A stretch of DNA of 64,000 bases from Cristatella mucedo (Eukaryota; Bryozoa; Phylactolaemata; Cristatellidae), in assembly GCA_009760855.2 (NCBI GenBank), contig WPIO01000139.1, positions 1-64,000 on the forward strand, written 5' to 3'. This document shows, piece after piece, positions 1 through 64,000 of this stretch. A program made the position numbers and the translations under genes. Each line of letters begins with the position of its first letter. Positions within the stretch are counted from its first letter, which is position 1. The notes below the pieces were generated by a model. It did not search any database. It was not told the origin of the DNA and worked only from the letters and a program-made list of their open reading frames with translations.

Positions 1-827
1 GATACAACCTTTCTCTAGGCCATGTGAACTGTTGAAAGGCGAATACAGCTACGGATGATCACCGGCTGTTTCTAAGGAGTAGGCGACTGCATAATGCCTT
101 TTATACATTACGACTAGATCTGTGAATAACGATCATGTAACTGAACTATATCTTGCACCCACAATTTGCTTTCATTTGTCCATCTTTCATTAAATCCATA
201 TTCTGTTGTCGTCAGCATTAACATAAATCGTTATTTCCTCAACCTTTGACTCGTAAAAAGCTTCAAGGCGGTGCTGCATCTCTCACTAATGTCCTTAGGA
301 TGCAATTCAATTTCCAAGTACGTTGCATGAGGAGATATTAACGAATCAGCTTGTAACTGCAGAGGCACAGAGCAAATGATTAACCCTGTGTGGGCTGGTT
401 TGGTTCTGTAAATCCGTTAGTTTTCATTAAGGTATCTTGCCGATTAAAAGTTTGGTTAGATGGAAAAAGATAGCCCTTTCTTTGTCCTCTGACAAAACAG
501 GGCCACTTAGGTTAAAGCTGAAAGACTTGAATATAGTGCATTTTCAGCAAAATAACAATCGTGATACGGTCACTTTTTCCCTTCGTGTCACTTTTTCACT
601 CGTTAGGTCTCTTTCACAATACTATTTTTCCGTTTGTTTCTCTAGTTGTCACTCCATACTGCCGAATTCTACCATTTTTTGCAATGGGAATTACTAGTTC
701 GTTTGAGGAAAAGTCCGCTTAAGCTCCACTATTTGTAATCGTACAATACCGAAATTTGATTACTGGCATTTGAATATCAACATTTGTAAACATGTACAAG
801 TATAGGTTTCAGTGGTTTGCTCTTTAT

Positions 828-899
828 TCCCTAGTGGTCTAGTGGCTAGGATCCGGCGCTCTCACTGCCGTGGCCGGGATTCGATTCCCCGCTAGGGAA
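828..899 (+). tRNA. tRNA-Glu (anticodon CTC), SINE-linked
   Basis: A 72-nt sequence close to animal tRNA-Glu. The acceptor arms TCCCTAG and CTAGGGA pair fully, followed by discriminator A. The anticodon stem-loop is CGGCG-CTCTCAC-TGCCG with one G-U pair. The T loop is TTCGATT. The T stem has one A-C mismatch (CGGGA/CCCCG) that the unit B copy does not have. A T run at 901-905 could terminate RNA polymerase III. It is part of an inserted composite element, so it may be a pseudogene rather than a working tRNA. Confidence 0.75.
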
Positions 900-917
900 A
901 TTTTTGGAATATAATTT

Positions 918-1003
918 GGTGAGCCGTGATGGCACGCTAGGTAAGGCGGTTGCTTTCACGACCTCGGGACCGAGGTCGTGGGTTCAATTCCTGCGGTGGG
1001 CGA
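918..1003 (+). other. Second tRNA-like segment of the composite element
   Basis: Contains a perfect B-box (GGTTCAATTCC, 981-991) and an A-box-like stretch (TGGCACGCTAGG). The two ends do not form an acceptor stem. A 9-bp palindrome (CGACCTCGG, GA, CCGAGGTCG; 959-978) lies where a variable arm would be. It is best read as a SINE promoter head derived from a tRNA, not a tRNA gene. Confidence 0.65.
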
Positions 1004-1695
1004 TCCTTTGTCGTCACTGCAAGCAGTGGTGTTAGCCGTAAAGGCTCTTCTGTCGCTATATAAAAAGATGCTGTTTGATCAGCTAGGATTTTTTTTCATT
1101 AGGCAGTCTTTTTCCGTTGACCGTGAATAAATATTGAACTGTAGGTCCTTAATGATATCAGCTAGCCATTGCAGCTCGTTTATATGTGTTTTCTCGGAGT
1201 TTCCAGTGAAAAAGGGTATGCAAAACTGCCTACGTAATTAGAAATACTCAAATTATCGTGTTTATTCAAAACAAATATTAAATAATTTTGGTTTTTCAAT
1301 TTTTAGCTGTAAGTTCAACTTATGCCCACCAGCCGCTTCGCTGTGGTATTTCCGACTACGACCAGTGTGGGGAATGTTCCAGTATTTCTCCAAAGGAATG
1401 CAAACGCCACCCCAATTTAGGGCATAGAAAGAGGTTTTCAGGTTAAGGGATCAGTATTTTGATCACTTCCTGCTAGTGCTTTGGTAGTTCGGCCTACGAA
1501 CTCGATTAGCAAGTGGTTAATCAGCAAATATAGCACAAACAAGATTATTTGCGACCATGATTATCGCCCTTATTAATTACGACGTTGCCATAAAAGACAC
1601 GAGCCCGACCGCCTTCACTCATTTACAGATACGGTCAGCTCGTCGGAGAGTCCTAACACTGAGCCAGAGCTACTTAAGGCCTGTGAACATTTCAG

Positions 1696-1959
1696 TTGGA
1701 AGTCGCGTGTCACATCAGCCATAAAAAACGTTTGGTACTGTTTGGGTGTTCATATATAAAGGCGTTGTCAGTGCTGCGAATTGAATACCTTCTCATTATC
1801 TTGGATGTAATGCAAACGTCAGAGATGTGCACATTGTGCACGTTTGCACGTTGTGCGGCCACCCGTTGTACCCTTGTTGTGAGGGTCATGCTTTCACCGA
1901 AATATTGTCACGTGTTAGGATTTATTTTCCATTCGTGTCATGTCCTTTCCAACGGCTGA
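1696..1959 (+). pseudogene. Conserved Cys-rich frame, unit A (unrecognised)
   Basis: No known family was recognised. The core VMQTSEMCTLCTFARCAATRC is rich in cysteine. The same frame is readable in B (11448-11729), D (32338-32565), E (39088-39321), and in broken form in F near 52460-52560 and G near 60920-61030. Conservation could reflect shared DNA ancestry alone, and the other strand is also partly open. No start context or splice site was established. Confidence 0.25.
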
Positions 1960-2394
1960 GAATTGCAAGCCATTATAAAACAGCTTTTCCCTTCATGAAC
2001 TCAGTCCCAAGGTCAAGCGGATTGTATCCTGAAGTGGGCGAACCTTTATTGCTGGTCCAAGTTGTAGTTCTAGCATTGATAGCTTCCCGAGAGCTTTCGG
2101 AATACAAGTAGCTGTATCGGCAAGTATTTCATCATCTTTTTGGACAATGGGGCTCTCTAATGGCTTCCCACTCCTATAGACCTGAATTATCAGATTTCTC
2201 GGTTTGTATTAAGGTGAGACCGATATCACTCCATTAAACAGAATACGGCATGACGGGCTATCCTGAATCCCAACAGTTACACTAGCTGTTGATACGTATT
2301 TGTGGGTAAACGTTTTACCCGTAAGGAGAGAGATCAATGTGTCGCTGCATGCTAGCACAGTAGGTTTGAAGATAATGCTGAGGCTTTCGGTGAC

Positions 2395-2646
2395 ATGCCT
2401 TATATGAACGGTGTGGACAAAGACCTGCTACCATGCTTCCGTGGTTGCGAAAAAGTAGGTCGCATCCGGCATACGAGGACTTTTGTCATAACAAAGTCAA
2501 GAAGTGTGACTGGTCGCTATGGAATCCATGTAGAAGCCCCCCCCCCCCCCCGGGAATCACCGAGCGGCCGATTACCAAGGTGGCTCACCTTGGTGCTCTG
2601 CAAGGTTTTGCCGATAGTTATGCATGAAGTGCACGATAACCTGTAG
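2395..2646 (+). pseudogene. Conserved frame with TGR-G-HVEA motif, unit A
   Basis: An 83-codon open frame of unknown function. Its second half, TKSRSVTGRYGIHVEA, then RLPRWLTLVLCKVLPIVM and HEVHDNL, recurs in F at 53668-53892 and near 55377-55566, in D near 34320-34490, and in frameshifted form in G near 62680-62820. The poly-C tract encodes extra prolines in the middle of this copy. The minus strand is also open here in several units, so the coding strand is uncertain. Confidence 0.3.
2537..2551 (+). repeat. Poly-C tract (C15)
   Basis: Fifteen consecutive cytosines where D and F have ordinary sequence (ccaccaggg-type). The run is 13 long in B (12291-12303). It is prone to slippage and to assembly error. 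Confidence 0.9.
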
Positions 2647-3167
2647 AGCGACAGCAGGGGCTGAGAAGACACTGACTCATCTAAGGCAAGGTTTCAACTA
2701 GGTAGCATGAGATGTGATAAAGCACACTGGTCTAAACTCTGTCGGTTATGTTAAATAAAGAAGTGCCTCGCGAGAAATTAAGTGCAGCACTACAGGTCCA
2801 GCAAGTGCATGCTATATTGGACCGTGTTGCTGTCGATACTGTCGGCTTCTTGACGAATGAGTGTCAACAAGAACATCTGGGCCTTGATAGTTTCCGTCGT
2901 AAGAGGAGTGAGAGCAGGAGCGAATCACAATGGAGACATGACTACCGTTTCTCATGCTACAGGCCATTTTTGCTTTCAATGTATACATCCCTGACCATGC
3001 CTTAGGTATCCCTGTGTAATTGTCTGTCACATATAAGCTGGCACATAGTAACAATGATAATCTGAAACGCCTAGAATATATGCAAGATAGGCGAAAGGCG
3101 GCTAAGACTGTCACTGCTGGCGAACGGTAGAAAAGGAGAACTTAAACGGCACTTTTTAGAATTTAGG

Positions 3168-3885
3168 CAACGTCTAAGTTGGTCCGAGCATTTGTGCCAT
3201 CCCTTCTTGACTTCTGTAACTGACGTTTCGCCTGCCTCCGGCATGTGCAATAGGCGGTTACAGGTGGTGATCATCTCTGCAACTAGGCCTGTGTTTCATG
3301 AGCAATTGAGTTGCCACGTCATACCACTTTTTCCTGACCTGAAGGGATTACAAGTAAACCATTGAATCGACTACAAGGTTTCATCGCTGACTTGTAGGTA
3401 ACTTCATTCTGGTGCCCCGGCCTATCTCTCAAATCTATTCCCCCACTAGACCCAGCATCGTAAAACTCGCCTTTAGGATTCCAAGATTATACCAATACCT
3501 CGTACCAACCTCACATCCTTTGGAGACCATGCAGGAAGTTCATATGCTCTTGGAGCCTGGCATTTACTCTCGGCTGGCGTCGCAACATCCAATGACTTGA
3601 CTACATTAAAATTAAATTGAAACACTCACCCTTTTTAGACAGCATTTAGTGGGTCCTTGTGATTCGTCCTGTACGCACCTATGCCTGCTGTCACTGTGAT
3701 TGCTGCTACTAACCAAACTTTTATGCACACCCTGTGCACGTCATCTTTAACTATGCTAGTGAAGTTTTGTATTAAGCGTGATATAACTCGCCGTTCAATC
3801 GCAATTGCTCTAGCATCTAATGTAAAGCACCTAGCGATAAATTGAGTTCTTCTAGAGCACTTTATCTTCTGCATTATTCTCGTGA
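3168..3885 (+). mobile_element. LINE (CR1/L2-like) 3' fragment, sense, unit A
   Basis: The end of a non-LTR retrotransposon. Decayed reverse-transcriptase C-terminal sequence is readable in pieces (FVPSLLDFCN near 3191, PGLSLKSIPP near 3418). It is followed by a 3' region with the typical aatgtaaagcacctagcgat motif and a ttctgcattattc end. Frameshifts and stops throughout show it is dead. The same fragment is in B and, in part, in X. Confidence 0.75.
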
Positions 3886-3940
3886 ATACTAATGTTACGT
3901 TAAGGGCATGTCACTTAGGAACTGGACGCCTAGATCATGT

Positions 3941-4146
3941 GCAGATTCAGTTGGAGGTATGCGATGGAATACAGATTCATTTAGAGGTATGACACGACAT
4001 ACAGATTCGGTTGGAAGTATAAGATGACATACAGACTCAGTTGGCAGTATGAAACGACATTCAGATCAAGTTTGAGGTACGTGATGACATAAAGATTCAG
4101 TTAGAGGAATGAGACGACATGCAGATTCAGTTGGAGGTATGAGATA
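3941..4146 (+). repeat. 30-bp minisatellite, unit A, first block
   Basis: About seven copies of a 30-bp motif close to acagattcagttggaggtat followed by gagatgacat. The period is exactly 30, with substitutions between copies. It is separated from the second block by an antisense LINE tail. Confidence 0.9.
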
Positions 4147-4153
4147 TGAAGAC

Positions 4154-4418
4154 TAATAATAATAATGCACTTGATGAAGCACCCTCTGAGAACTTAATCT
4201 CTTTCTAGGTGCTTTACCTTCGCTGTGAAGAGAAATGTAATCGAATGGTAAGTAAAATCAGGTTCCAAGAAAATGAATAATATGGTTAGGGGCGACATGC
4301 ACAAGGTCAGCATGCAAATGTGGTTAATGGCAGCATGCACAGTGTCGGCACGCATAAGCACATGAAGGAAAAATCACAAGGACCTACTAAATGCTGTCCT
4401 TATTAGGTGTTTTATAGA
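4154..4418 (-). mobile_element. LINE 3' tail, antisense, inside minisatellite
   Basis: The reverse complement shows gtaaagcacctagaaagaga, then a gagggtgc segment and an ATT-rich end, the 3' terminus of the LINE family seen elsewhere in the unit. It splits the minisatellite. It is absent in B but present in X. Confidence 0.72.
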
Positions 4419-4430
4419 GTGAGATGACAT

Positions 4431-4565
4431 GCAGATTGAGTTGGTGGCATGACATTACATACAGCCTCAGTTAGAGGTATGACACGACATACAGATTCAT
4501 TTGGACTTATGAGATGACATACATATTCAGATGGAGCTATGAGATGACATGCAGATTTAGCTGAA
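4431..4565 (+). repeat. 30-bp minisatellite, unit A, second block
   Basis: About four and a half more copies of the 30-bp motif downstream of the antisense LINE tail, ending at cagatttagctgaagg. Confidence 0.88.
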
Positions 4566-5339
4566 GGCTTGCCGGCATAGTCAATTGTAAGTGTAAACTG
4601 TTCTCAATTCTGAGTTGCTCGGTATGCCTCCATTTGTTTCGATGTTTCGTCGCTAATAAATTTAGAATAGCTTGCTGCCAGGCATGAGCGATATCATCAA
4701 TCGATGCAGAAAATTTGTGGGGTGACAGTGAGGCACTGTGAGGGATGAAAATTGAAGTACGAATAAATCTGCAAAGAAGCGAAAGCCTAGGTTTTGCTTG
4801 GCAATCAATTCGGCAAGAGGGAGAGTATGAAATTTTTTTAAATGTTACCGATGAGAGGCCCCTTCGGTCACGCCTCCTTAAGTGGTTCTTCGGACGATCA
4901 TTGACAGTCCCCATTCGGAGCCCGGTGCATACTGTTGCCATATGACCTGAACCATCGATGTGCGACAAAACATAGGCACAGCCAAATGTGAGGAGCTAAT
5001 GAAGGACCTTGTAATCAAAATTTTTGAATGCTGCCGAAACAAGAAGCAAAATGAACCGAAGAATCACTTGCAAATTTACATTGGCTTTAAAATGTCGGTA
5101 CGTAAGCTTTTCCACGGTTAAACAGGTGCCGATATAGCCGGAAATTCGTTTGATCGCTCGCAATGGTATTGAAAAGGAGTACTCGAAACTGTCGTCATTG
5201 ACGTTAGTTCTGATGTGGTCGTTTTGTCAACCCAGGCCTTGAAATTGGAAGCTCACATTCTGTGAAGTGTGCAACTCATGCTCTGCGAGCTAGCGATGGG
5301 ACAGTAAGTGACGTGCCAAACTAAGATTGGCTTGAATCG

Positions 5340-5573
5340 GTGGTCTACAGGACTGGCATCTTTCTTTTTCGAGAATTTGCTAGGTTCTATGAGGCCATAA
5401 AGTTAGTCGTAACAACAGCAGCGAAAGTCATCCCGAACGGAACATCACAACCAAATGCGTATAGGAATCTACTTGAAACCTCTATGCTGTTAAGTGAGTA
5501 TATACCTCACCTTCATGGACTTGATTTCACAATAGGTACATCATTTACTGGAATCTATGACGGCGGATTGTAG
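5340..5573 (+). pseudogene. Conserved 77-codon frame FARFYE, unit A (unrecognised)
   Basis: Open frame reading FLFREFARFYEAIKLVVTTA, then KVIPNGTSQPNAYRNLLETS and HGLDFTIGTSFTGIYDGGL before a stop. The first codon is GTG, so the true start is probably a splice acceptor or lies upstream. Unit B has the same frame, intact. The inverted copy in Y keeps most residues at much lower DNA identity, with one internal stop. No family was recognised. Confidence 0.35.
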
Positions 5574-6172
5574 TTTATCTTTATGAAAACATCAAGCCCT
5601 TGCGAATGCTGGCCCGGATATGGTAGGATAACATAGAATAGATAAGGTTTAAGCTTGGTTACGCCATTTTGAGTGCTTGGCGGGAAGAGGAAATGGTGCC
5701 ATTGCAGCATTATCCGATTAAGTGTGCATGTTGAAATAATTGAATGGCTGGTACTGGAGCCTGTGCATTTTAGCCATTAGAAAGATTCATAACCGGAATG
5801 GCTGAATACAATTTGTGTAGAATTTGTGCTCAGACTAGCACAATTTTTGGATTCCCGGTACGAGCCGGATGTGGGGATCCATGGGATTCTTTGCCAGTGA
5901 GGAGCTGCACTGCCATCGCACGACAGCCCGGTTTGCCTCTTACTGCTCGACACATTTTTTAACTGTTTCTCAATCTTGTTTAGAACATCGTAGGCAATGG
6001 CGACTTCATCCGGATCTTCAAGCCTCGTGGAGAACCGTGAAGTGAGTAGGGAAGGCCCGTTGACAGGAGAGACGGTGCATATATGTGCTATAGTTTCACT
6101 AGTCGCAGTCCATAGGACGGTTCTTAGGTGCAGGCTCAAGCTGCCTTGTTTTCTTTCCTGATAACGTACGCC

Positions 6173-6320
6173 AAGGATAACGATAGGGGCACGTGGGAAA
6201 CGTAGCTCGTGAACAATGCTCCACTACTGTAGAATGCATGGTATGCACGAAGCGATTCAGTTGTATCCAAAGCTGAATCTACATAAGCAAGATCATTGCA
6301 AAGCGATGGAAGGCAGCAAG
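6173..6320 (+). pseudogene. C2H2 zinc-finger exon, unit A, frameshifted
   Basis: Homologous to the 50-codon exon in E. VECMVCTKRFSCIQ is readable, then a 1-bp loss (caaagctg for caaatgctg) breaks the frame before the histidines. The start codon is AAG instead of ATG, and a second 1-bp loss lies near 6183. The splice donor AAG|gtatgag at 6321 is preserved. Confidence 0.6.
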
Positions 6321-7605
6321 GTATGAGAGCAGATTTACCTGGCCACGTTACACCATTGGTCTTTGTTATCGTCCCGTATTCCTGCATGCTCTGAGCATTC
6401 AGGATCCATAGCCATCGGACGTTAGACGGGCACGTTTAAGTTCGTAATGGTTGAAAAGTGACTTTGAGGACTTAATTTGTATTACGTTATTCGATTGTTT
6501 CTCCTAAATGTGCTTAGTTATGAATGAATGTGTAAAATATTTGTACTCATGGTCCACTGAGCAGTACAACGTTTGAAAGTAACTGATGTTGTCGTCACTC
6601 TGAATTACAATGGTTGTGATACTCGTCGAACAGCGTTGCGTTCAATGCGAATGTTTGAATCTTCGCTTGGCTACATGTATATGACTATTGTGCACGTTAT
6701 TCAGATTGAATTCATTCGTCGTCGGTAAATAAGCATTCGTCGAGTGCATGCATTGGTAAATAAGTCAGCATTGAAAACACTAGAGTGGCAGTGCATGCAT
6801 TGCTTACATTTCATGGCAGGCAATTCATCCCACGATTTTTTTTGCATTGCTCATGTGCACAGTGCCAAAATGATGCTCCCACCTTGGTGTTTTGCTTAGG
6901 CTTTTCACTGGAATAATATTAGGAATAGTGCTTTTCTAATACCTAATCTAAGATAAACTTTTGTTGTTTCACGTTCTATGGAATGCTCAAAATACCTTGG
7001 GTTATAAACACAGTTTTCCGATCTTTGCACGTATGAGGTCGTGCATGGCTACAGCAGATGGTACTCTTTGCGAGTTACTCATCATAACATGCAATCTCCA
7101 TTGGCAGTGAACGTAAAATATGTAACGAAGAATCAGTCATCATGATGCGATTGTAGGACTTTTGAACGTTGCCACTCTGTCGAATAGGACGTTGACGTTG
7201 ATTCTGTAATAATGCATGTAAGGACAGGCTGTCGTAAGGCCTGCCTGTTACTTTTACCGACGGCAATCAGATACGCATTCATTATCAGACAGATATTGAA
7301 CTGGTAGTTTTCCGGCTTGTTGGTGTGACTCACGTTTTCACAATGGCCAGATTTAAGGAAAATTGTACTGACTAAGATTTGATGGCTAGACACGTAACTT
7401 GACGGATTGCTGCCAAATAAGTGAAAACAAGGACGTCGTTTGTTTAATTTAACATGGTTCAACGGCTGCTTCATTGAAAAGCGTTTAATGGCTGTTTCAT
7501 TCAACATTACGACCAAATCAGCTTCACAGTCAAATCTGCCTATTTTCAGCTTGTGCATTTCTGCATCAACATTGCTAAACCTTGAGCTTGTTTAGATAAG
7601 GATAG

Positions 7606-8152
7606 CACATCTAAGTTGGTCCATGCATTCGAGAAGCTACGACTCAAGCATTGGATCGACTTCAAGGTTTTGTCGCTCACTTTTAGGTCCCTTAATTCTG
7701 TAGCTCCAGCCTATCTCTCAAATATACTCCCACATCAGGCCATGCATCGTATCAGCCGCTTTTCGGAATCCAACAGTCTACAAAAACATTGTACGAACTT
7801 GGGAGACCGTGCACATAGTTTGCATGCTCCCAAAGCCTGGAACTCTCTCCCGACCTGCGTCAGAACCTGTCCTTACCTGACCAAATTTAATAGGAACTTA
7901 AAAACACACCATTTTAGGGCGGCATTTAGTGGTCCCAATGATTTTTCCTTCATGTACTTATGCATGTTGACACTATGCATGCTGCCATAAACCACATTTG
8001 CGTGCTGACCCTCTGCTAGTCGCCCCTAACCATATTATTCATTTCGTTTTTTTCCATGCATGATTTAGCTTACCATTCAATTGCATGTCCCTTTGCAGCA
8101 AATGAAAAGCACCTACAAAGAGCAAGTGTATTATTATTATTATTAATATTAA
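7606..8152 (+). mobile_element. LINE (CR1/L2-like) RT C-terminus and 3' end, unit A
   Basis: The frame at 7616-7990 reads HWIDFKVLSLTFRSLNSVAP, AYLSNILPHQ, GDRAHSLHAPKAWNSLPT, then KFNRNLKTHHFRAAFSG. This is the typical C-terminal domain of CR1/L2/Jockey-type reverse transcriptases. It is followed by a 3' region with gaaaagcacctacaaagagc and an ATT run. Compared with B about 150 bp are missing after cattcgag. No reverse-transcriptase core or endonuclease is present. Confidence 0.85.
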
Positions 8153-8178
8153 CACAGTTTAATGGAAAATAGTAGTCC

Positions 8179-8472
8179 TTAGAAGCTGAAATGCGTCCCC
8201 AGTGTGTAGTGTGCTGTCGTGTTCAACGAATACCAGTGGTGTTTTGGTGGTAATAGAAAGCTCGACGTGTTATCGCACGAGGACACAAATAGGCAACCAC
8301 AAATCAGTTTCAGGTCCGAGCCACACTTTTGGACTTTTGGAAGGCTCAGATAATCCGTTACTGCACTTTTTCTAGTGAAAATTGGAAAGGTAATAGCAAT
8401 ACCTCTCAACAATGCACAGTAGAGAGCAAGCCTGCTGTCTGAAATGTCATGCGAGCCAACTCGTACAGCCAT
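8179..8472 (-). pseudogene. Conserved minus-strand frame, unit A (unrecognised)
   Basis: A 97-codon frame reading MAVRVGSHDISDSRLALYCA, then FTRKSAVTDYLSLPKVQK, CGSDLKLICGCLFVSSCD and HHWYSLNTTAHYTLGTHFSF. The same frame occurs in B (17922-18215), on the plus strand of Y (23473-23847) and, frameshifted, in Z1 and E. No family was recognised. Open length alone is weak evidence because copies are recent, and the E copy has several breaks. Confidence 0.25.
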
Positions 8473-8596
8473 TTATTGGCCGGCTTTTGACACACGATGA
8501 GCTTGACGATCAATGTGTGCTCACACTGTCACTATGCATAGCACGTGGCCTCAATATTGAAACAACGGTCCAGCGACTATAATTTCGTGTCTTTTA

Positions 8597-8731
8597 ATGA
8601 AGGGAGCCCGAAAGTCACACCGAAAAGGTTGGCATGTTAAGAGACAACAAGGTGATACCATTAGTGACGAGGTGCCTTCAGAGTGGCGTAAGTACAAAAA
8701 CATTTGTTTTTCAGTGCCTTTACGCTACTGA
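8597..8731 (+). pseudogene. MKGARK exon upstream of C2HC finger, unit A
   Basis: A short basic frame from an ATG: MKGARKSHRKGWHVKRQQGD, then SDEVPSEWRKYKNICFSVPL and a stop (TGA) at 8729. Copies in C (MKGARKSRRKSRPVKRQHW...) and Z1 continue past this point to FSRTxxICFK, followed by a gtaagc-type donor. It probably precedes the C2HC exon in one transcript, separated by a very short intron. The tract is rich in Arg/Lys, which suggests a nuclear or nucleic-acid-binding role by inference only. Confidence 0.4.
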
Positions 8732-8797
8732 TTTAGTCCAACTGACGTGATCTGTTTTGAGGTCAGCTACAGCTACTTAGCTCTGAAATTTTGTTTC

Positions 8798-9056
8798 AGT
8801 GCCAGAGGGCCCAAAGCCTTGTGTTGGAGTCGCAACGACTGACGGGAGCTCGTCAGCCTCAGAGCCGAATTGCCACTCCTTCGATCTTGCGGTTGCCTCT
8901 GAAGTCACTAAGACTCACGTTTCCAAAAGAAAGACCTCAGCTGGCTCTTGCAAAAGTACTCTCCGTACCTGTCCCACATGCAGGAAGACACTGTCAACGC
9001 CATTCAGCCTCAAACGCCATGTCAACCGCAATACATGTAAAGAGGCGGCAGTTTAA
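8798..9056 (+). pseudogene. C2HC zinc-finger terminal exon, unit A, open
   Basis: Preceded by a polypyrimidine acceptor (aaattttgtttcag). The frame reads PEGPKPCVGVATTDGSSSAS, SEVTKTHVSKRKTSAGSCKS, then TCPTCRKTLSTPFSLKRHVN and RNTCKEAAV before a stop. C-x2-C-x12-H-x5-C (8970-9038) matches a C2HC variant of the classical finger. It is open in this unit, but the upstream exon carries a stop. The family is unknown. The exon recurs in Y, Z1, Z2, C and E, always at the same place in the unit. Confidence 0.5.
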
Positions 9057-10574
9057 TAAAAAGAGCCACTCTTTCGGTCGATTGCCACTGCAGCAGTCCC
9101 TATGGCCGCTTCCAGAAGTGTGTTCAAACAATTTTGGTTTTTGAATAGTGTATCCTGCATGAAGATTGGCTTGAGGCTGGATAAGTTATTTCTTATGATG
9201 CAAAATGAAATGCTCACTGCATCGTGCATGCTGGACGGATTTCACTGTGAATGTGAACACGAATCTTGGATTCGCAGCTGATAATAATGAACAACTTGCT
9301 CCCCTACGTGATAGTGATTTTTGTGCGGTCAACTGACTCTCCAAAGGCAGGGAAATGTTCGGATGAAAATTGGCCTGTGAAGTGAACTGACTGTGAAATT
9401 GTAAAATCATAGCTGTTTCGCTTGACCTTACAGGCAGGTAAACGGCATTCAATTCGCACAGACGTTTTACGAAACTTTTGCGTACAATTCTCTAATTAGC
9501 ATCCACTATGATGATGTCATGGTACAGTTTGAGAAACCTTAAACGGTGGTCATGGGCAACTGCTGCTGGACATCGGCTACCCGTGACCAGCACTGTCTGC
9601 TCAGCAAGATGAAGTTTTGGCTAAATCCTTTTCCCAGCCAGGGTGCCTAAGCCCAACTGAGAGATCACACTGACCTGCAGTACAGCACCTAATGACTACA
9701 GGTAAAAAATATATTTTTGCAGCAACGGAACGCTGCTGATTCTTTGGATACAACCTTTCTCTAGGCCATGTGAACTGTTCAAAGGCGAATACAGCTACGG
9801 ATGATCACAGGCTGTTTCTAAGGAGTAGGCGACTGCATTATGCCTTTTATACATTACGACTAGATCTGTGAATTACGATCATGTAACTTAACTATATCTT
9901 GCACCCACAATTTGCTTTTCATTTGTCCATCTTTCATTAAATCCATATTCTGTTGTCGTCAGCATTAACATAAATCGTTATTTCCTCAACCTTTGACTCG
10001 TAAAAAGCTTCAAGGCTGTGCAGCATCTCCCACTAATGTCCTAAGGATGCCATTCAATTTCCAAGTACGTTGCATGAGGAGATATTAACGAATCAGCTTG
10101 TAACTGCAGAGGCACAGAGCAAATGATTAAGCCAGTGTGGGCTGGTTTGGTTCTGTAAATCCGTTATTTTTCATCAAGGTATCTTGCCGATTAAAAGTTT
10201 GGTTAGATGGAAAAAGATAGCCCTTTCTTTGTCCTCTAACAAAACAGGGCCACTTAAGTTTAAGCTGAAAGACTTGAATATAGTGCATTTTCAGCAAAAT
10301 AACAATCGTGATGTGGTCACTTTTTCCCTTCGTGTCACTTTTTCATTCGTTAGGCCTCTTCCACAATACTATTTTTCCGTTTGTTTCTCTAGTTGTCACT
10401 CCATACTGCAGAATTCTACCATATTTTGCAATGGGAATTACTAGTTCGTTTAAGGAAAAGTCCGCTTAAGCTCCACTGTTTGTAATCGTACAATACCGAA
10501 ATTTGATTACTGGCATTTGAATATCAACATTTGTAAACATGTACAAGTATAGGTTTCAGTTGTTAGCTAATTAT

Positions 10575-10646
10575 TCCCTAGTGGTCTAGTGGCTAGGATC
10601 CGGCGCTTTCACCGCCGTGGCCGGGGTTCGATTCCCCGCTAGGGAA
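10575..10646 (+). tRNA. tRNA-Glu (anticodon TTC), SINE-linked
   Basis: The unit B counterpart of the tRNA at 828. The anticodon loop is CTTTCAC, so the anticodon is TTC rather than CTC. The acceptor, anticodon (CGGCG/CGCCG) and T (CGGGG/CCCCG) stems are all fully paired, and a T run follows at 10647. Structurally this is the better of the two copies and could be functional. Confidence 0.8.
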
Positions 10647-10664
10647 TTTTTTGGAATATAATTT

Positions 10665-10750
10665 GGTGAGCCGTGATGGCACACTAGGTAAGGCGGTTGC
10701 TTTCACGACCTCGGGACCGAGGTCGTGGGTTCAATTCCTGCGGTGGGCGA
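10665..10750 (+). other. Second tRNA-like segment, unit B
   Basis: Same arrangement as at 918-1003, with an intact B-box and palindrome. One visible difference is cacac for cacgc in the A-box region. Confidence 0.65.
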
Positions 10751-52904: not shown

Positions 52905-52938
52905 CATCTACTGCGCCCATCTGAAGAGCATCGATGAA

Positions 52939-53145: not shown

Positions 53146-53264
53146 TAATAACAGTCTAATCTGAGTGAGTGGTTCGAACACGTTTAAGCACGTGCATGGT
53201 GGCGTAGGTAAGTGCGATCGAGACCGAACTCTTGCAGGACTGAACTGTATGGCTCCGTCCATGC

Positions 53265-53345
53265 TGTTTCTGCAGCCCCCTTATCTGCAGCTGCAGCAAC
53301 CATCCCAGCTGTAGTCACAGCTGCTACCACAGCAGCCCACTTAAT
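53265..53345 (+). other. Gln/Pro/Ala-codon-rich tract, unit F
   Basis: The same tract as in D, reading QPPYLQLQQPSQL then a stop in the Gln/Pro frame. Confidence 0.4.
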
Positions 53346-53599
53346 CAGAAACCGTGCTTCCAATCCACCTATCTTTTCAATTAAACTGTGTTGATGATAT
53401 TTTAATAGAGCATGATTTTCATTTGATCATGTACCCTAGTTTTTTGCATATTAAACACAACTAGTTGTAAGGCAAACCAAGATGTGAGAAGTGGGGTTTG
53501 TGCAAAAGATGTTTTATATAAGACACACAGATATAAAAGTAGCACCCTGAGCACAGTTTATATAAAAATGTTTGCGAGCACAATAGGTTGGCATATGGT

Positions 53600-54905
53600 T
53601 ATGAAGCTTTTGGAGACATGCCACATATGCACGGGGAGGACAAAGACCTGCAACGCTGCATAAGGGGTTGCGAAAAAGCAGATCGCGTCTGGCAAAGGAA
53701 AATATCTTTTGTCCTACCAAAGTCTCAAGTATTACAGGTCGCAACGGAGCCCATGTAGAAGCCACCAGGGAATCGCGGAGTGGCCGGATACCAAGTTGGC
53801 TCACCTTGGTGCCCTTCAAGATGTGTGTGATAGTTATGGACGAAGTCAACGATAACCTGCAGGTTGAAACAGAGGGGCTGAGAAAACACTGATTCATCTG
53901 AGGCCGAGTTTCTACTAGGTAGCATGAGATCTGATAAAGAAGAGTTGTCAAAACTCTGCCGGTATGTTCTATAAAGAAGGGCCCCCCCGACTGACCAAGG
54001 GCAGGGCTGCAGCTTCACAAAGTGGGCTGTATAGCTGTATAGTGGAGCGAGTTGCTGTTAATACCTTCGGCTTCTCGACAAATGCATGGCAACAAGAACA
54101 ACTGTGCCTTGTTTTCTTAATTCACTGAGAGGAGTGAGAGCATGAGCGATTCAAGACCAGGATTTGATTATTGTTGCTCATGATATATGCAATTTTACCT
54201 CGTATACATATATCAACAGAAATGCCCTAAGTATTCCAATGCAGTCATTCAACAAATATAAGCTGACAAGTGTGACCTTGGGTACTCTAAAACGCTTAAG
54301 ATAATTGAGAGTTAGGCAAAAGCCGGCTAAGATTGTCGCAGCTGGCGTATGTTGGAAAAAGAAAACAAAAAAGGCAGCCTTTAGAATTTATGATGGGACT
54401 AGCACCGAAAAAGAACAGATTTAGTTATAATCAAGCTGACAAGTAAGTTTTTATAGAGTTGATGTCTCCGATTGATACTGCCCACTGATCAATGGAGCCA
54501 TACAAAGGTTATATTTCGCCGAGATATCCACGTTACTAATCAATGTATTGCAGTTGTCAACCATGCAAAAATAGTTTCAATTGCACTGCAGCGTCCATGG
54601 GCATTGGTTTCCTTTTAGTGTGATGGTGCAGGTTTTAGTTTGTCTTTGGTATAGAAAAATTTGCAAGCAGACCTTTGCTTTTGCTTGGCAATGCACCAGT
54701 TTGCCCACTTGAATCCTATAAAGACGACCTGAAATTGCTCACAATAAAGGTGCTAATTAAAAAATAAAGCTAATATATGGTCGTTTTTGAATTTACTTTT
54801 TGGGGATACGATTTCATAGTGCATGCAAATAGAGTATATCAACAACTAAGAAAGTGGGACTGGCATTGACGGATGGCACCACCCAGTTCACAAACCAAGT
54901 TCACA
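53600..54905 (+). repeat. Internal duplication in unit F, first copy
   Basis: Equivalent to D 34190-35400. It runs from ttttggagacatgccacata to the ggatggcaccacccagttcac segment. The same stretch recurs at about 55255-57230 with the LINE inserted in it. Confidence 0.72.
53668..53892 (+). pseudogene. Conserved frame with TGR-G-HVEA motif, unit F first copy
   Basis: Reads SSITGRNGAHVEATRESRSG, then RIPSWLTLVPFKMCVIVM and DEVNDNLQVETEGLRKH before a stop. Matches the frame in A residue by residue over about 55 codons, with indels kept in threes. Product unknown. Confidence 0.33.
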
Positions 54906-54977
54906 AAGTTCAAAGTTCACAAACGAGGCAGGCGATTTTGAATTTACAGCTGCTTGCAGTTGTGCTGGCCATAACGG

Positions 54978-55388
54978 CTACCCGGCGGCAATACAAAAAA
55001 AAGTTGTTAAATCCGCTAGTATTTCAGAATATTCACAGATTACAGGTTTCTGCTTCCCTCCCTTAAAGACCTGGAGGATCAGATTTCTCAATTTGTTGGA
55101 AGGTGTGATCAATTTGACTACACAATACAGTATATAGCACGGCCGACTAATTGGAATCCTAACAGTTTCAGTCGCAGACCATACAATATTGTGGGTAAAC
55201 ATTTCACCCGTAAGGAGACAGATTGAGGTGTTTCTGTATGCTAGCACAATTGGTTTGAAGATAATGCTGACGCTTCCGGAGACATGCCACGTTTGCACGG
55301 GTGGGACAAAGACCTGCAACCATGCCGCAGTGGTTGGGGAAAAGCACGTCGCGTCCGGCATAGGACAAGGTCTTTCGTCATAAGTCAA
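54978..55388 (-). pseudogene. Long conserved open frame, minus strand, unit F
   Basis: A 136-codon frame containing MPDATCFSPTTAAWLQVF, WHVSGSVSIIFKPIVLAYR and NLILQVFKGGK. Counterparts occur in D (34072-34299), E (39997-40431) and G (62207-62635). The plus strand is also conserved and partly open here, so which strand, if any, was coding cannot be decided by eye. Confidence 0.25.
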
Positions 55389-55566
55389 AAAGTATTACTG
55401 GTCGGAATGGATCCCACGTAGAAGCCACCAGGAAGTCGCCGAGTAGCCGAATACCAAGGTGGCTCACCTTGGAGCCCGGCAAGGTTCCACCGATAGTTTT
55501 GGATGAAGTTCGAGATAAGCTGCAGGTAGACACCGAGGGGCTGAGAAAACACCGAGTCACTTGAGG
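55377..55566 (+). pseudogene. Conserved frame with TGR-G-HVEA motif, unit F second copy
   Basis: A second copy within the duplicated part of unit F. It reads HKSKSITGRNGSHVEATRK, then SRIPRWLTLEPGKVPPIV and DEVRDKLQVDTEGLRKH. It is open from the upstream stop to the final stop. The first and second F copies differ at many third-codon positions while keeping the residues, which suggests past coding constraint. Confidence 0.33.
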
Positions 55567-55894
55567 CAGGGCATATTCTAGGTAGCATGAGATCTGATAA
55601 AGCCGAGTGGTCAAAACTCTTTCACGTATGCTATATAAATGAGCGCCCCACGACGAACTAAGGGCAGTACTACAGCTTCAGCAAGTGGGCACTCCAGTGG
55701 AAAGAGTTGCTGTTGATACCATCGGCTTCCCGACAAATGCATGTCAGGAAAGCTACTGTGTCATGGTTTTTTACTTTACTAAGAGGAGCGAAAGCATGAG
55801 CGATTCATGACCAAGATTTGATTATCGTTGCTCATGCTACATACAATTTTACCTTTTGATGCATAGGTCAATAGCCATGCCTTAAGTATTCCTA

Positions 55895-56573
55895 ACTAGC
55901 TCTTTAGTTCTGTCTCGGCTTGATTATTGTAATTCCCTTTTGGCTGGGCTACCAAAGAAAGCTATTATGCCACTACAGCGGACTTTGAATATGGCTGCAA
56001 GGCTGGTCTTCAAGTCCCAGCGGTTTGAGCACGTGTCACCTTTGCTGAATGAGCTAGGATGGTTGCCGGTTGAGCAAAGGATACAGAGCAAAGTTCTTAC
56101 GCTGACCCACAAGGCCCGCCACGGCTTGGCTCCTTTATACCTAGCTGAAATGCTGCATCAGTTTCAGCCTGTTCGCGCCCTCAGGTCCTGTGTGGACAAT
56201 AAATTAGCTGTCCCATTCCTCCGCTTAAAGACAGTTGGCGACAGAAGCTTTAGCTCTGCAGGTCCTAGACTGTGGAACTCGCTTCCACAATTCTTACGCA
56301 ACGACATCTACTCTCCAACTGACGACTATGGCACATCTTTTTCAGCGGTCCTGAACTGCTACTTCTATGCTACTCACTACCTCAACTGCTCTCCTAACTC
56401 TGCTATGCTTCCAACTTTCTCTTTGTTGCGTGAGACGAAGTCTGTTGGCTACCGAATGCGTACCGAAAGCCGCTTAGGCTGTGAGTGCGCTATACAAAAC
56501 TCTCCTGCGTAACACCCACATGGTCTTTATGACTTTGTGGAGTTACTGACGGAGATACATTACATTACATTAC
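55895..56573 (+). mobile_element. LINE RT C-terminus with (ACATT)n tail, unit F
   Basis: Open for 205 codons (55895-56512). It starts TSSLVLSRLDYCNSLLAGLP and continues RTLNMAARLVFK, NELGWLPVEQRIQSKVLTLT, YLAEMLHQFQPVRALRS and GDRSFSSAGPRLWNSLPQFL. This is the thumb and C-terminal domain of a CR1/L2-type reverse transcriptase. It is 5'-truncated, as is usual for LINE insertions, and ends in acattacattacattac. It interrupts attccta/cgtaatcctgaacac, which is continuous in D. The open frame suggests it is the youngest LINE in the window, and its sequence belongs to a different subfamily from the A/B copies. Confidence 0.9.
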
Positions 56574-57894
56574 GTAATCCTGAACACATAGAAACTGACA
56601 CGTAGGACCATGGATACTGTGAAATGCTTTGGCTATATGCAGCTAGGCTAAATCCGGCTCCGATTTTCATAGCTAGCTAGGAAAGAAAAGGAAAACAAAA
56701 ACGGCATCCTTTATGATTTATGATAGAACTTGTGGCGAATAATAACAGATTTCGATATAAATTAAGCTGGCAAGTAATTTTTCATATTGTTGATGTCTTC
56801 GAGTGATATTGCCCACTGATTGATGGAGCCAAACGATGATTAGATTTCGCCAACATATCCATGTTAGTAATCAACGTATCGTAGTTGTTAACCATGCCAA
56901 AACAGTTTCAACTACACACAAAAGTGCAACATCTATGGGCGTTGAATTCCTTTTAGTGTGTTGGTGCAATTTTTTTCTACAGTAACATCTGTAAGCAGGT
57001 CTTTGGCGTAGCTTCACAATGCGACAGTTTGTCCAGTTGAATTCTTCAAAGTTAACCCGAAATAGCTAAAAATTAAGGTGACAATCAAAAAATAAGCCAA
57101 CACATAAACTTTTTCGAATTTTCTGTTTGCGGATATGATTTCACAGTGCATGCAAATCAACTATATCAACTACTCAGAAGGTGGGACGGGATTGAAGGAC
57201 GAAACCACCCAAGTCACAAAATAAGCTCCTTATGTCTAACAGGCATCGAAACAAAGAAGAAAGCTAAGGATTCTGTGAAGAACCTATCGAATTATATCCT
57301 TCATTAGGACAGTAAAATGAATAACGGGAGTTTTTTATTAAGAGCCAGTGTTTGACTTCGACTTCCGCAAGTTCCAGGGAACTTTACCTGGTAACCCAGG
57401 GAGATGACTTATAACAGCACCTTGTCTAAAAAGGCACACCACAGCCTTTTAAGCTCAGCCCGTTAAAGGTCCTATCCAGCTAAAAACTGCGAGGCTACCA
57501 ATTGGAAATAGTTCATCGTCCAGAGTATAAAGCTTAATGTATTCTGCTCTGACGGCGTGGCACGTGAGAGGGACTACATCCGGATTCAAATTCCCTCAAT
57601 TCATGTGGCCAGAAGAGGCCGGTGGTGGATTGATGAAGCTTTTAGGAAGCCACTTGGCTATAGGACCTGCAGTTTTTTCAAATTAATCATCTTTCGAGTC
57701 AGTTGCTGTCAGTTCTCAATTAAAGACCAATGATGTCCATATTGTATGCCCTGGCTTTCCAAGCATATTACCGACGTCTTTTCCGGCTTCGGTTAAACTA
57801 ATGATAGGATGGATGATAGTGTACAAATGACTGCAGTTGACTTTACGATTTACTCTGTTAACACAAATGATAGTCAGGTGCTCTCGCTTCTTTA

Positions 57895-58217
57895 ATGTTA
57901 GGAAAAAGTCGTTTAGTCCATTACGATTATAATACCATTAATTCTGGTGGCGTTGTCCTTGGTTTTACTGAATTAAAAAAAGAGCACAGTTATCTACGAA
58001 CAGGCTTTGAAGCCGCTATGATAAGTCGAGGTATGCTGACGTCTTAACCAATTTCAAAGAATTATTTGTGTCTTTAGAAGGAAGCTTAGAAAAGTCAGAT
58101 ATTCTTTTCAATGCAAAAGCTGAAATCCCGCCAGCCTGATCTTTTACGAATTTAGAAGACGGTAATCAAATTGCTATTGGGTTGAGAACTCACAGAGGTT
58201 CTCAATCTTGGTACTAG
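57895..58217 (+). pseudogene. Conserved frame LTNFK, unit F, broken
   Basis: The second half reads SRYADVLTNFKELFVSLEGS, LEKSDILFNAKAEI, a stop, then FTNLEDGNQIAIGLRTHRGS, QSWY and a stop. The first half is out of frame (a 1-bp difference near 58020). Confidence 0.33.
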
Positions 58218-61200
58218 CAACGGTTGTCAAGTTTAAAACGATCCAAGTTATGATGGCTACTCGTATTCTGGCCACCGTACAGCCCCTAACTAAACAAATT
58301 ATCGAGTCTTAACCCATGCATTTAACAGGGAATTCTCCGAGGTCGTTTCCGACGAAGTATTAGTCCTAACAACCTCTGATATGATGAAAATAATCTCCTG
58401 GAGACCCTTCTCAACTTGTACCGGCAAAAACAACGAGGCCCAGCCCATAATTGAGATATTCATGATTCTCTAGAAAACGATCTTTTACCGAAGTAATTCA
58501 AATTTGCCACCGTTAGACCACTTGAACAGTCTGGATTAGATTCTCAGTGCATAGCCTAATATTATCTCACACTTTCCATCTGACGTTCTGAAGAGAACTC
58601 GAATAACCAGCTCTAAGCACTCACTGGGCGAACGATTTTTACGAGTGCCCACTTTAGTGCTGAAGGTTAATGTCTGATAAATGGTAATGAATTCGCAGAG
58701 ACGTTTTCACTAGACTGTACGGCAATTCCTCTGAGAAATTTGAGTTCTAATAATATCAAGATATTATTAGAGTAACACCCTGTGTTTACGTGCCGCTGCT
58801 GCCGAACAACGGCTACCCGTGAACCGGCACTCGCTGCTCAGCGAAAGTAGGTTCTGGCTAAATCCACTTTAACGGCAATTGTGCGTATTCTCAACTAAGA
58901 GATCACCTTGACCTGCACTACAGCACCGGATGGCTGTATACGATGGATATCTTTTTGGAGCCTCAGACCACTGCTGATCCGCTGGAAATCACCCATGTCT
59001 TGGCCATTTGAACTCTTCCTGGGCCAGAACAGCTACGGCTGATCAGAGCGTGTTTCTAAGGACAAGCCAAAGTGCTAATGAATTTTATTTAGGATGACTT
59101 GCTCAGTGAATAACGATCATGATACACTACTATATATTGCACTTATGAGTTGCTTAAACTTTGTGCGTCTTTGATTACGTCCTTATCCTGTCGTCGCCTG
59201 CTTTGTCAAAAATCGTAATTTCCTCAACCATTGACTCAAAAATGACTTTAAGGCATCGCTGCGTCTCTCACTATTTTCCGTGGAATGAAATTACATTTTG
59301 AAGTACGTTGATTAACGAGCAATAACCAAATCTGCTTGAAACTGCAAAGGCAGACTGCGAATGAGTTACCCAGTGTGGGGTGGTGCAGTTCGGTAGTTCC
59401 GTTAGTTATCGCTTGGGTATCCCGCCCGTTGAAACTTTGGTAGTATAGAAAAAGATAGTGCTTTCTTTTTACTCTCGCATAATTGCGCCGCTTTACTTCA
59501 AGTTGAAGGACTTAAAAAATTGCACTTTCTGCCAAATTGTAAGAAATAATAAAAACAAGAATAAGAATTGTGATAGCCTCTTTCTTCCCGTCGCTCTCTC
59601 ACTCCTTCGTTCTCTTTCACGCATCCTTTCTTTCTATTTCTGTAGTTGTCACTCCATGATGCCGAATTCTACCGTTTTAGGCGATCGTAATTATTAGTGT
59701 ATTCGAGGAAAGGTGTGATGACGCTGTACTGTTTGTATTTGCATAACACCGAAACTTTACTACTGGCTTTAATATACCAAAATTGTATATGCGTATAGAT
59801 ATCAGTCTCAGCGGTTCGCTGGTTGTTAGACAGTATTTTTCTGCCTGACTTGAAATAATATAAATGTTGTAAACTGTAAGTCCTAAAAGATATCAGCTAG
59901 TGATGGCAGCTAATTTATTGCACAGCTCAGTAGTGGGATAACTTCAACGAACATGTAGCTTTAGCACATTCAAAATGTTGGCAATGGTCGAGCTCTGTCA
60001 TAGAAAGTCCTTGCTGTCCCAAATTAATGAATATTGCATCGCTTGTCATTATGGATATTAAGAATACAGCGTATTAAACACAAAATGCAACAGCAAGAGA
60101 ACCTGCAGACACTGATTTAATTACTTCCACATGCGGCTGGGCTTGTAGCTTCAAATGCTAACTAATTCTGTAGCTGTTCTACAGGTCTGATCAAGTTTAG
60201 ATTAGGGTACATTGAGTTTTGCAAGATACAAAGAGGGCAGTAAATATTATAGTACACTACCAGATTTTTCTTTACAGAGGGTGTGAGTTACTTTCCGATT
60301 GGTTATGATCGTAAGAGTTTAAGACAACGTCGAGGAAAACGTTCGCTTAGAGTTCGGCACAGAGTTTCCAGTGAATAGGCGTAGGCAATACCTTGTACGT
60401 AAGTTAACACTCTCAAATCATCAGGTTCACAATAAATAAATAATAACACTATCATTTTTCATTTGTTACGTGTGGTTACGTTCATATATGGCCACCAGCC
60501 GCCTCCCTGTGGTATTTCTTTCAACGACGAGTGAGGTAAACGTTCCAGTATTTTTCAGCAGGAATGCAGACGCAACCACAATCAAATGCATTGGAAGAGG
60601 TCTTCGTGTTAATGGATAGGTACTTCTATTCCATGTAGTAAGGTTTCGCCAGGTGGGCTTAACCAAGCGATGAGCGAGCGGTTAATGAGCAAACATAGCC
60701 CTAGCAAGATAATTTGCGAAAGTGATTATCGTCTTAATAAATTACAACGTTGCAATAAAAGACACAAGCTTAAATGCATTCACTCTCTCATAGAAACGGT
60801 CAGCTGGTCGATGAGTCCTAGCCCTGCGTGTAAGCTAGTTTAAGCCTGTGAACGAGTCATTTGCAAGTCGCCTGTCGTAATAGCCGTAGAATGTGCATTA
60901 CTGCTTGCGTGTTTATAGAAAAAGGTGTCGTATGCTCTACGTATTGAGTACTTTGTCATGATCGTGGGCGTAATGCAAACGTCAGGGCTTTGCAAGTTGT
61001 GCATATTTGCATGTTGTGAGGCTACCAGTTGTAGTGAGAGCCATGCTGCAGCAAAAATTGTTGTCACAAGTTAGGATTTATTTTACATTTTGTGCTCATG
61101 CTATTTGTTCGCCCTGTCGTTTGCAATGCTGACCATGGCACGAAACCCTGTGGGTGACCTATATTTTATGATACTCATAGTGAGAAACTTGACTTAACCA

Positions 61201-61499
61201 CTTCAAGTACCAACTCGAGTATGCAGACCCTGCAACAAATGATCCGTTGTGGACAGGTAGAATTGACGAAAACAAATGCCGGTTATTTAAGGCGGCTCGG
61301 AGTAAATTCTTGGATAATGTGACTGCATTTGTCTTTTTGATATTGTGGTCAGTGTAGAGAAGACTGTGCACGTTATTGTGAAATTTTCGCTCAGTTACAA
61401 TAACAGTTAAATCTTAGCAAGTGGTTCAAGTGGGATTGAACACGTGCATGGTGGCGGCGGAAAGTGTGACCAGGACCGAATGCAAGCAGGGCCGAACTG

Positions 61500-61590
61500 T
61501 ATGGCGGCCTTGGCCGCCGCCCCAGCCTCAGCTGCAGCAACCACCCCAGCTGCAGTCACAGCTGCTACCGCCACCGCTAGCTTAATTAGA
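61500..61590 (+). other. Gln/Pro/Ala-codon-rich tract, unit G
   Basis: The best preserved copy: PPQPQLQQPPQLQSQLLPPP, then LA and a stop. The alternative frame encodes an alanine-rich peptide. Confidence 0.42.
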
Positions 61591-62206
61591 AACCATCCTT
61601 TCCATCCATCCATCCTTCCTATTACATTGTGTTGATTGTATTTCAATAGATGGTGATCTTCATTTTATCCTGTACCGTAGTTTTTGGCATAGTAGAAGCA
61701 CCTAGTTATAAGCCTCACCCATATAAAAGACATGGGTTATAACGATTTTTGTGAAAGATGTTTTACATAATGCTCACCGATATAAAAGCTGCACCCTGGG
61801 TGCGGATAATATGAAAATTTGAATAGGAGGCGTTGTATGTATACGAAAATACGGTATATATGTATATCTGTACACTTTGACATACATCCATCGACGCTGG
61901 GGGAAAATGTTCTACCCCGGGGGTGGAATGTCCTAGGGTCCACAAGGTTGGAAATATCTGCGATGGGAGAAAACGTCCGGAAGAGGGAACTGTCCTACAA
62001 CCGCTGGCCCAAATCAAGGATGGACACGGGCAAGTGTTGCCTTGCTTCAGTAAGGTTCTCAGTGGTCCAGAGAAGAGTTACCAAGTCACGAGGAAAAAAC
62101 TGCAAGTCATTAGAAAACTGCTTTTTCCTTCACGAACTCAGTCCCGAGATCGTGGATATCATATCCCGAGGTAGGCGATCCTTTATTTCAGGTCCAAGTG
62201 GTAGTG

Positions 62207-62635
62207 CTAGCCTTGATGGCTCCCGTGAGCTTTTAGAATATAAGTTGCTAAATCCACAAGTAGTTCACCATCTTCACTGACTATGGTACTCTGCAATGGC
62301 TTCCCACCCTTAATGACCTGGAGGATCAGATTTCTCAATTTATAGCACGATTTGACCAATGTGATGACGTAATACAGTGTGTATGTGGACCGGCTAATGA
62401 GAATCGACACAGTTTCATTCCCAGACCTACAATATTGTGGGTAAACTACTACTACATCATTATGGGTAAACATTTCACCCATTTTACCTGTGGGTACAAA
62501 TTTTACACAGGAAAGAGATCGAGGTGTGACTGGGTCCTTGCACAGCATGTTTAAATATGATGCTGAGGCTTTCGGAGACGTGCCACGAATGCATGAGGAG
62601 GACAAATAATTGCAACAAAGCTGCAGTGGTTGCAA
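62207..62635 (-). pseudogene. Long conserved open frame, minus strand, unit G
   Basis: A 142-codon frame sharing EMFTHNDV, LRNLILQVIKGGKPLQS and VSEDGELLVDLATYIL with E and F. The first part has shifted frame relative to those copies, after a small duplication of the gtgggtaaac segment (62441-62480). Confidence 0.25.
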
Positions 62636-64000
62636 AAAAGCCGGTCGCGTCCGGTGTAGGAGAAGGACTTTGTCGCCACAAAGTCACAAAGTATTACTGG
62701 TCGCAATGGAACCTATGCAGATCCCACCAGGGAATCACCGAGTGGCTAGATACCAAGCCTTGGTGCCTGGCAAGATTTCACTGATAGTTACGGATAAAGT
62801 GCACAATAACCTGCAGATTGACGCCTAGGGGCTGAAAAGACACTAAGCGATCTGAGGCAGCGTTTTGCTAGGCAGCATGCGATCTGATAGAGGAGTGGTC
62901 AAAATTCTGCCGGGTACGTTACATAATGAAGGGCCCCATGTCGAACCGAGGGCAGCCATACGGCTTCAGCAAGTGGGCACTCCAGTGAACGAGTTGCTGT
63001 TGGTAACGTCGGCTTTACGACAAATGCGTGTCAACAAGAACAACTGAGCCGTAGTAGTTGACTTAAAAAGGGGAGCGAGAGCATGAGCGATTCATGACCA
63101 AGATTTGATAATCATTGCTCATGCTACACCCAATTTTAGCTTACGATGTATAAATCCATAGCCATTCCTTGTATATTCCTACGTAATTGTCTGTCACATG
63201 TAAATTGACTAGTATGACCATGGCTAATCTAAAAAGCTAAGGATGCAAGCAAATCTTGACTAAAGCCGGCTAATACTGTCACTGCTGGCATAAAGGTAGA
63301 AACGGAAAACTAACACGGCACTTTTTAGAATTTATGTCACAACCAATCGCTAAAATAACAGCTTTTAATATAATTTAAGCTGACGAATGAGTTTCCATAG
63401 AGTTGGTGTCTTCGAGTGATACAGCACACTGATTAATGTAGCCAGGCGGTTACAAGATTTCGCTCAGATATCCTAGTTACTAATACACGTATGGTAGTTG
63501 TCAACCGTTCCATAAGACTATTAATTACTGCCTACAACGCCACGTCGATAGGCATTGGTTTCACTTCGGTGTGGAGGTACAGTTTTATGTCACGTTTTTC
63601 TATACTAAAATCTATAAAAAGGCCTTTGGTGTAGCTTTGCAATACGACAGTTGGCTCACTTAAATTATTAAACGTTAACCTACAATTACTCTAACTAAAG
63701 GTTTCAATTAAAAATTTAGGCCAATATGTTGGGTTTTTAATATTATTTTATTGATGGGTACCATTTCACGATGCATGCAAATCAACTATATTGATTAATT
63801 AGAAAGTGGGATGGGCGTTAAAGGATGATGCCATCATGTCCACTAACTAAGTTTGTTTTGCCCTAACAGGCATTGAAGCTATCAAAAAAGCTGAAGATTC
63901 AGATAATACATTATCCTATCGTCTGCTTAATTAAGACAGTAAAATGAATAACGGAAATCGTTCGATAGAGAGCTGGTGGATGGATGACTTCGACTTCCTC

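Follow-up and report, generated by a model that had tools for sequence, protein, structure and literature searches.

The 64,000-base window analysed here, bases 1-64000 of contig C43 (977,500 bases) in the 572-Mb, 688-contig genome of the bryozoan Cristatella mucedo, is built from recurring long units that probably represent a lineage-restricted array of zinc-finger genes, amplified by duplication and by now mostly decayed. The unit carries two finger exons on the plus strand, designated ZF1 and exon 2, with the motif C-x2-C-x12-H-x4/5-C. As judged from the sequence, we place moderate confidence in a past constraint on these exons and little confidence in a present function. The individual units and their positions are listed in Table 1.

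Structure, extent and age of the array

A blastn comparison of the window with itself (312 alignment rows, trivial and mirrored ones included) retrieved the opening block of unit A (1-828) again at 9747 (95.7% over 4.2 kb), 27848 (88.7%), 30524 (in two pieces of 69% and 74%), 37156 (69.8%), 50230 (67.1%) and 58998 (70.1%), and in inverted orientation at 22198-21777 (83.6%). All openings listed by the first-pass annotation, including the inverted one, are thereby placed correctly within 14 bases. Off-diagonal alignments of at least 200 bp span 91.1% of the window, whereas five out of five Markov-simulated 64-kb windows yielded no self-match at the same cut-off, so that the consistent unit lattice proposed before is borne out. 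Stretches of more than 150 bp outside the repeats comprise a CREB-like gene fragment, the relic of a copia-type retrotransposon with its edge, a 301-bp insert in unit G, a piece of the long interspersed nuclear element (LINE) type at 55895-56570, and the block 41991-43874, which pairs with sequences outside the window. Block comparison also confirmed that different internal blocks are absent from different units.

The opening at position 1 is a mere consequence of the start of contig C43 and does not demonstrate a natural boundary. On the other side, array blocks run past the window to about 83.1 kb; matches of at least 150 bp in the adjoining stretch (~83.1-104 kb) are limited to a 166-bp piece resembling the G insert and to LINE-type pieces. 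The earlier statement that the array is recent at one end therefore holds in part only: the contig begins inside young units and the view was truncated, so that the polarity partly reflects the viewpoint. On C43 the paralogous units are adjacent and mostly arranged head to tail, which qualifies them as a tandem array. Contig C567 (18,877 bases) contains ~16.9 kb of array, representing two incomplete young units, followed by a terminal LINE-type element, and contig C119 harbors about one old unit at ~321.5-336 kb. The right flanks of the array on C119 and on C43 do not match.

Five whole-genome DNA searches, each scoring its top candidates (40 of 4623, 40 of 10596, 38 of 1176, 40 of 882 and 40 of 2626), detected full blocks only on C43, C567 and C119. 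Matches elsewhere correspond to a short interspersed nuclear element (SINE), the LINE-type piece 7509-8122 and old dispersed pieces of at most ~470 bases; because the best candidates alone were scored, absence from the rest of the genome is unproven. All ten match rows of exon 2 fall on the same three contigs, and ZF1 gave seven array rows plus a weak one on C29 (E 0.73, 26% identity) that is taken as a chance match. Among these best candidates the array thus exhibits units of several kb at one or two places, a property of macrosatellites, and lacks the full-length copies at many unlinked places that characterize dispersed transposons, in agreement with the previous conclusion that it is not a single transposon.

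The identity of the opening block to unit A decreases from 98.4% (C567) via 96.4% (B), 89.5% (D), 84.1% (Y) and 73.7% (E) to 69.6-72.6% (F, G, H and C119), which substantiates the graded identity described in the first-pass annotation. Only A, B and C567 exceed our threshold of 95%; the other units are 67-89% identical to A and do not show the homogeneity of a macrosatellite. Four block trees unite the young copies A and C567, joined by B wherever that unit is represented. F and H are 83.5% alike in the opening block and pair in all three block trees that hold both (support 0.99, 0.82 and 0.96), and the wider group of F, G, H and C119 is recovered in the opening-block tree only. Unit D branches near A in the opening tree and joins the old copies in the tree of the zinc-finger tail and is therefore a mosaic; the earlier description of D to G as strongly diverged is too simple for D. 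The aligned copies differ by 6991 transitions and 8714 transversions, hence their divergence is not a simple cytosine-to-thymine signature.

Zinc-finger exons and signs of constraint

The finger exons exhibit the Cys-Cys-His-Cys/His spacing of the classical finger, and a profile built from the exon-2 sequences of three copies in the window hits the consensus zinc finger 1MEY (E 4.6e-4). In unit A, a putative exon 1, a predicted intron of 112 bp and exon 2 would encode a product of 115 residues, whose start is basic and whose single finger lies close to its end (115-116 residues across copies). The finger exons may be or have been translated, and the product would be a small, possibly nucleic-acid-binding protein. 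Three other donors in A also stay in frame and give 95-107 residues; GTAAGT was preferred because it fits the donor consensus. With this donor and the acceptor TTTCAG, the two-exon frame is open in three of eight copies (A, C567 and C119), and A is the only one of the tested window copies that is open through both model exons. The finger Cys and His residues of exon 2 are retained in A, C567, F and C119. An open ZF1 is found in the copy at C43:79552 and in one of those on C567. A direct junction of ZF1 to exon 2 was rejected, as ZF1 ends in phase 0 and exon 2 requires phase 1 (read from the letters). Among the other copies, exon 2 contains two stops in D, is lost from B and is frame-shifted in C1b.

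The case for past constraint is based on the distribution of insertions and deletions (indels) and of divergence along the unit. In a scan of 248 windows (252 bp, at least four other copies; rows of C567 and B and two short young ones excluded), exon 2 has the lowest indel load of all (0.29 per copy versus a mean of 3.30) and also the highest number of copies that share an open frame (four of eight). With all rows kept, it has 0.38 indels per copy versus a mean of 3.40, a value equalled by 8 of 809 windows. The divergence of ZF1 is 0.150 versus a mean of 0.250 (all rows), and the 16 of 873 windows that are as low cluster on ZF1 itself. 

The strongest rival explanation, which we regard as conceivable but rather unlikely, is a non-coding macrosatellite or segmental duplication, whose finger exons are dead passengers of the founder without gene function after duplication. 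This scenario is favored by the breakage of most copies, the two-exon model being disrupted in five of eight (C1, D, F, Y and the 81-kb copy on C43), and by the loss of the ZF1 acceptor AG in the young copies. It also draws on the ratio of nonsynonymous to synonymous substitutions (dN/dS) in exon 2, which is close to 1 for many pairs; it lies at 0.57-0.78 in ten deep pairs, but at 0.86-1.64 in most of the remaining ones and at 1.36 between the 81-kb copy and C119. In addition, the codon-level signal does not exceed permuted controls: no segment of a codon-substitution scan with F as reference rose above the null of 12 column permutations (best score 65.0, null maxima 55.5-92.3). The codon-substitution tests thus do not support present constraint.

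Several further observations weigh against functional finger genes. The 81-kb copy has Phe instead of the first exon-2 finger Cys and shares with F, but not with C119, a stop in exon 1, which also fits an untranslated exon 1; ZF1 of C119 is open, but its second Cys is replaced by Ser. Pfam scores remain under the curated cut-offs (best zf-C2H2 hit 19.4 versus 25.2 bits, 8787-9053). The motif scan gave seven plus-strand matches versus 1.1 in shuffles, and four of the seven are true copies; as the minus strand exceeds its shuffles too (6 versus 0.6), however, the motif count alone proves little. Exon-2 divergence is average (0.243 versus 0.250, all rows), and ZF1 has 0.83 indels per copy versus a mean of 2.17 (all rows), 129 of 873 windows being as low; its indel count drops to 0 only if the intact C567 copy represents the young group, and other three-copy windows likewise show 0. 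The structure prediction for three window copies was uninformative (mean predicted local distance difference test score 40.6).

A passenger should nevertheless not show low indel load and low divergence preferentially on its finger exons. Exon 2 is among the stretches with the lowest indel load and keeps one frame open across copies that are ~25% diverged, and ZF1 is the least diverged stretch. Of the two guesses offered by the first-pass annotation, the expanded gene-family relic is the better-fitting one; it is backed by the array-restricted finger exons and the signs of past constraint, but it is not confirmed by the codon tests. The macrosatellite is a poor match, since the identity among most units is far lower and they are rearranged. 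Conservation peaks across units were also observed near 38120, 39770, 48540 and 48680; they lack a consistent open frame and are possibly regulatory or non-coding.

Origin, rearrangements and inserted elements

The decayed gene array would have started from an ancestral segment of ~10 kb with two single-finger C2HC exons, one belonging to a small two-exon gene and the other either to this gene or to a neighboring one. This segment may have been duplicated head to tail, with one copy reaching a second place (C119), before pieces were lost, doubled and inverted through unequal exchange and error-prone break repair, which would also have captured the CREB-like gene fragment. A recent duplication would then have given rise to A, B and the units on C567. 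The proposal of duplication with internal deletion and inversion is backed by the lattice, the missing blocks and the identities. One example is unit B, whose zinc-finger block breaks at the position of A 8660 and returns to A 3314. Other examples are the fold-back in Y with arms of 0.68 kb (86% alike), the tandem doubling of 0.89 kb in C1 (25530-26416 and 26419-27304, 86.8%) and the direct junction of a late block to the early block of the next unit in H (67515/67522). The junction letters are too diverged to judge microhomology, except at B 18389-18401, where six bases possibly match. Tandem repeats of 30 bp are located at 3942-4145, 4420-4555, 13734-13906, 19014-19218 and 21641-21767, adjoining LINE-type pieces and near several rearrangement points.

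A less probable variant than the passenger scenario is that the array represents an uncatalogued orphan family of small single-C2HC-finger proteins that is still amplifying; no homologue of this family was found elsewhere in its own genome, and its duplication and loss would be like those of zinc-finger families tracking selfish DNA. An assembly artefact, in which allelic or collapsed copies were wrongly joined to give A, B and C567, is improbable. The start of C43 and most of C567 fall within young units, where an assembler would be expected to break down, and A and C567 differ by just 1-3%, but the same junction of unit end and unit start is present at several divergence levels within C43 and is found again at 8209/8210 of C567rc, an independent contig, and copies that are 67-80% alike are implausible as alleles. 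The recurring junctions lessen the concern about an assembly error, but do not remove it. Finally, a low-copy mobile element, i.e. a large transposon with nested insertions, is highly improbable: parts of the unit are old dispersed repeats and a second site exists on C119, but full blocks are confined to three contigs among the best candidates, the C43 copies lie mostly head to tail in one place, and no transposase domain was present in the 20 open reading frames (ORFs) scanned, one of them beyond the window (no search aimed at terminal repeats of the unit was made).

Table 1. Units, finger exons and inserted elements of the window (positions on C43)
Feature	Position	Strand	Remarks
Unit A	1..9746	+	Young; left side cut by contig end
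LINE-type piece, 30-bp tandem repeats and inverted 260-bp dispersed piece, in A	3170..4413	.	
tRNA-Glu-derived SINE	828..1101	+	In A; in B from 10575
Dispersed LINE-type piece inside A	7509..8122	+	
Proposed exon 1 in A	8597..8687	+	ATG, 91 nt, then GGC/GTAAGT
Exon 2 in A	8800..9056	+	After TTTTGTTTCAG; C-x2-C-x12-H-x5-C finger; stop TAA
Unit B	9747..19524	+	Young; main blocks 95.4-97.5% to A
Final piece of B	18389-19524		Second copy of A 3314-4451, 90.6%
Y, fold-back segment	19493..24335	-	Forward 19493-20170 opposite inverted copy (21770-20257) of same block
Y, rest			After fold-back: inverted opening and inverted zinc-finger tail
C1 and C1b	24636..27413	+	Zinc-finger tail block, end doubled in tandem
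Exon 2 in C1	25687..25943	+	Open frame; zinc-binding histidine to leucine; exon 1 frame-shifted
CREB-like gene fragment	27409..27838	+	430 bp
Unit D	27848..30523	+	Short; opening 89.5% to A, zinc-finger tail 78.2%
Unit E	30524..37153	+	Without either zinc-finger exon
Unit F	37154..50217	+	Most complete old unit in window; ~10 kb plus copia-type insertion
Ty1/copia-type retrotransposon relic in F	43875..46671	+	Decayed
ZF1 in F	47328..47489	+	After TTTCTTTCCAG; finger, then AAG/GTATGA; one internal stop
Exon 2 in F	49270..49526	+	Open frame; stop in exon 1
Unit G	50218..58983	+	Without either zinc-finger exon; one middle block twice
Unit H	58984..64000	+	Continues beyond window; without either zinc-finger exon

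The site of the SINE is empty in D and E, and the SINE and CREB insertions provide a relative order of events. Apart from the SINE's two tRNA-Glu heads, Rfam and ARAGORN searches reported nothing. The copia relic in F retains gag and pol pieces and two end repeats of ~310 bp that are 76% alike; a short, near-perfect inverted repeat (by eye) lies just past its end repeat (46690-46760). The G insert (51768-52068) is probably a dispersed element, because a related 166-bp piece is found at C43:84375-84540. The end of C567 (L006 3-1862), beside the young units, contains a 620-residue open frame with an RVT_1 domain (107.1 bits). In a whole-genome search for reverse transcriptase (PF00078), none of the best 150 of 21066 candidates that were scored is located in the window, which does not show its absence.

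The CREB-like fragment comprises one exon with both splice sites, is 98.8% identical to C88:373556-373982 and replaces ~105 bp of the unit end with a few filler bases; by eye, its edges show neither poly(A) nor a target-site duplication. The donor gene on C88, which we take to be CREB-like with KID-like and bZIP exons, is separate from the array, and a similar second exon (74% protein identity) is present on C665. In its local deletion, its filler bases and its lack of both edge features, the fragment resembles a class 2 templated sequence insertion (PMC5110952), but it retains intron sequence on both sides of the exon and is documented in one assembly only.

Beyond the array itself, a 770-bp direct repeat was found on C119 (338446-339215 and 341588-342357, L024), whose two copies are 99.6% alike and the second of which stops exactly where the contig does. 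No vertebrate-type telomere repeat was found in the window. TGA is read as Trp in COX1 on C688, a gene of lophotrochozoan appearance with AGA at serine positions; together with the CREB-like gene on C88, this code usage points to an animal.

Comparison with known systems and significance

Mammalian KRAB-zinc-finger clusters hold finger genes in tandem, combine recent, old and broken copies, are lineage-restricted and encode long C2H2 finger arrays. The array resembles these clusters in its putative tandem finger genes, in the coexistence of recent, old and broken copies and in its lineage restriction. It differs in having a single C2HC finger per exon and few copies and in being known from sequence alone, and no KRAB domain occurs among the Pfam matches of the ORFs scanned. 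Tandemly duplicated zinc-finger gene clusters of this kind are one of the closest known systems (PMC5363842). The human macrosatellites RS447, D4Z4, DXZ4 and TAF11-Like consist of multi-kb units at one or two places, some with an ORF, and identity within the SST1 arrays is given as >99% (PMC3018141). The array shares with these macrosatellites the multi-kb units, the one or two places and an ORF, but its units are mostly 67-80% alike, rearranged and partly inverted.

The locus legibly documents the growth and death of a gene array: it combines units of graded age with insertions that can be dated, an inversion of the fold-back type and part of a host transcription-factor gene that was captured. 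It represents a well-preserved but not unusual case of gene-array growth and decay. If the copies in A, C567 or C119 are not expressed, the array would be an ordinary relic, whereas their expression would mean an additional family of zinc-finger genes that is lineage-restricted.

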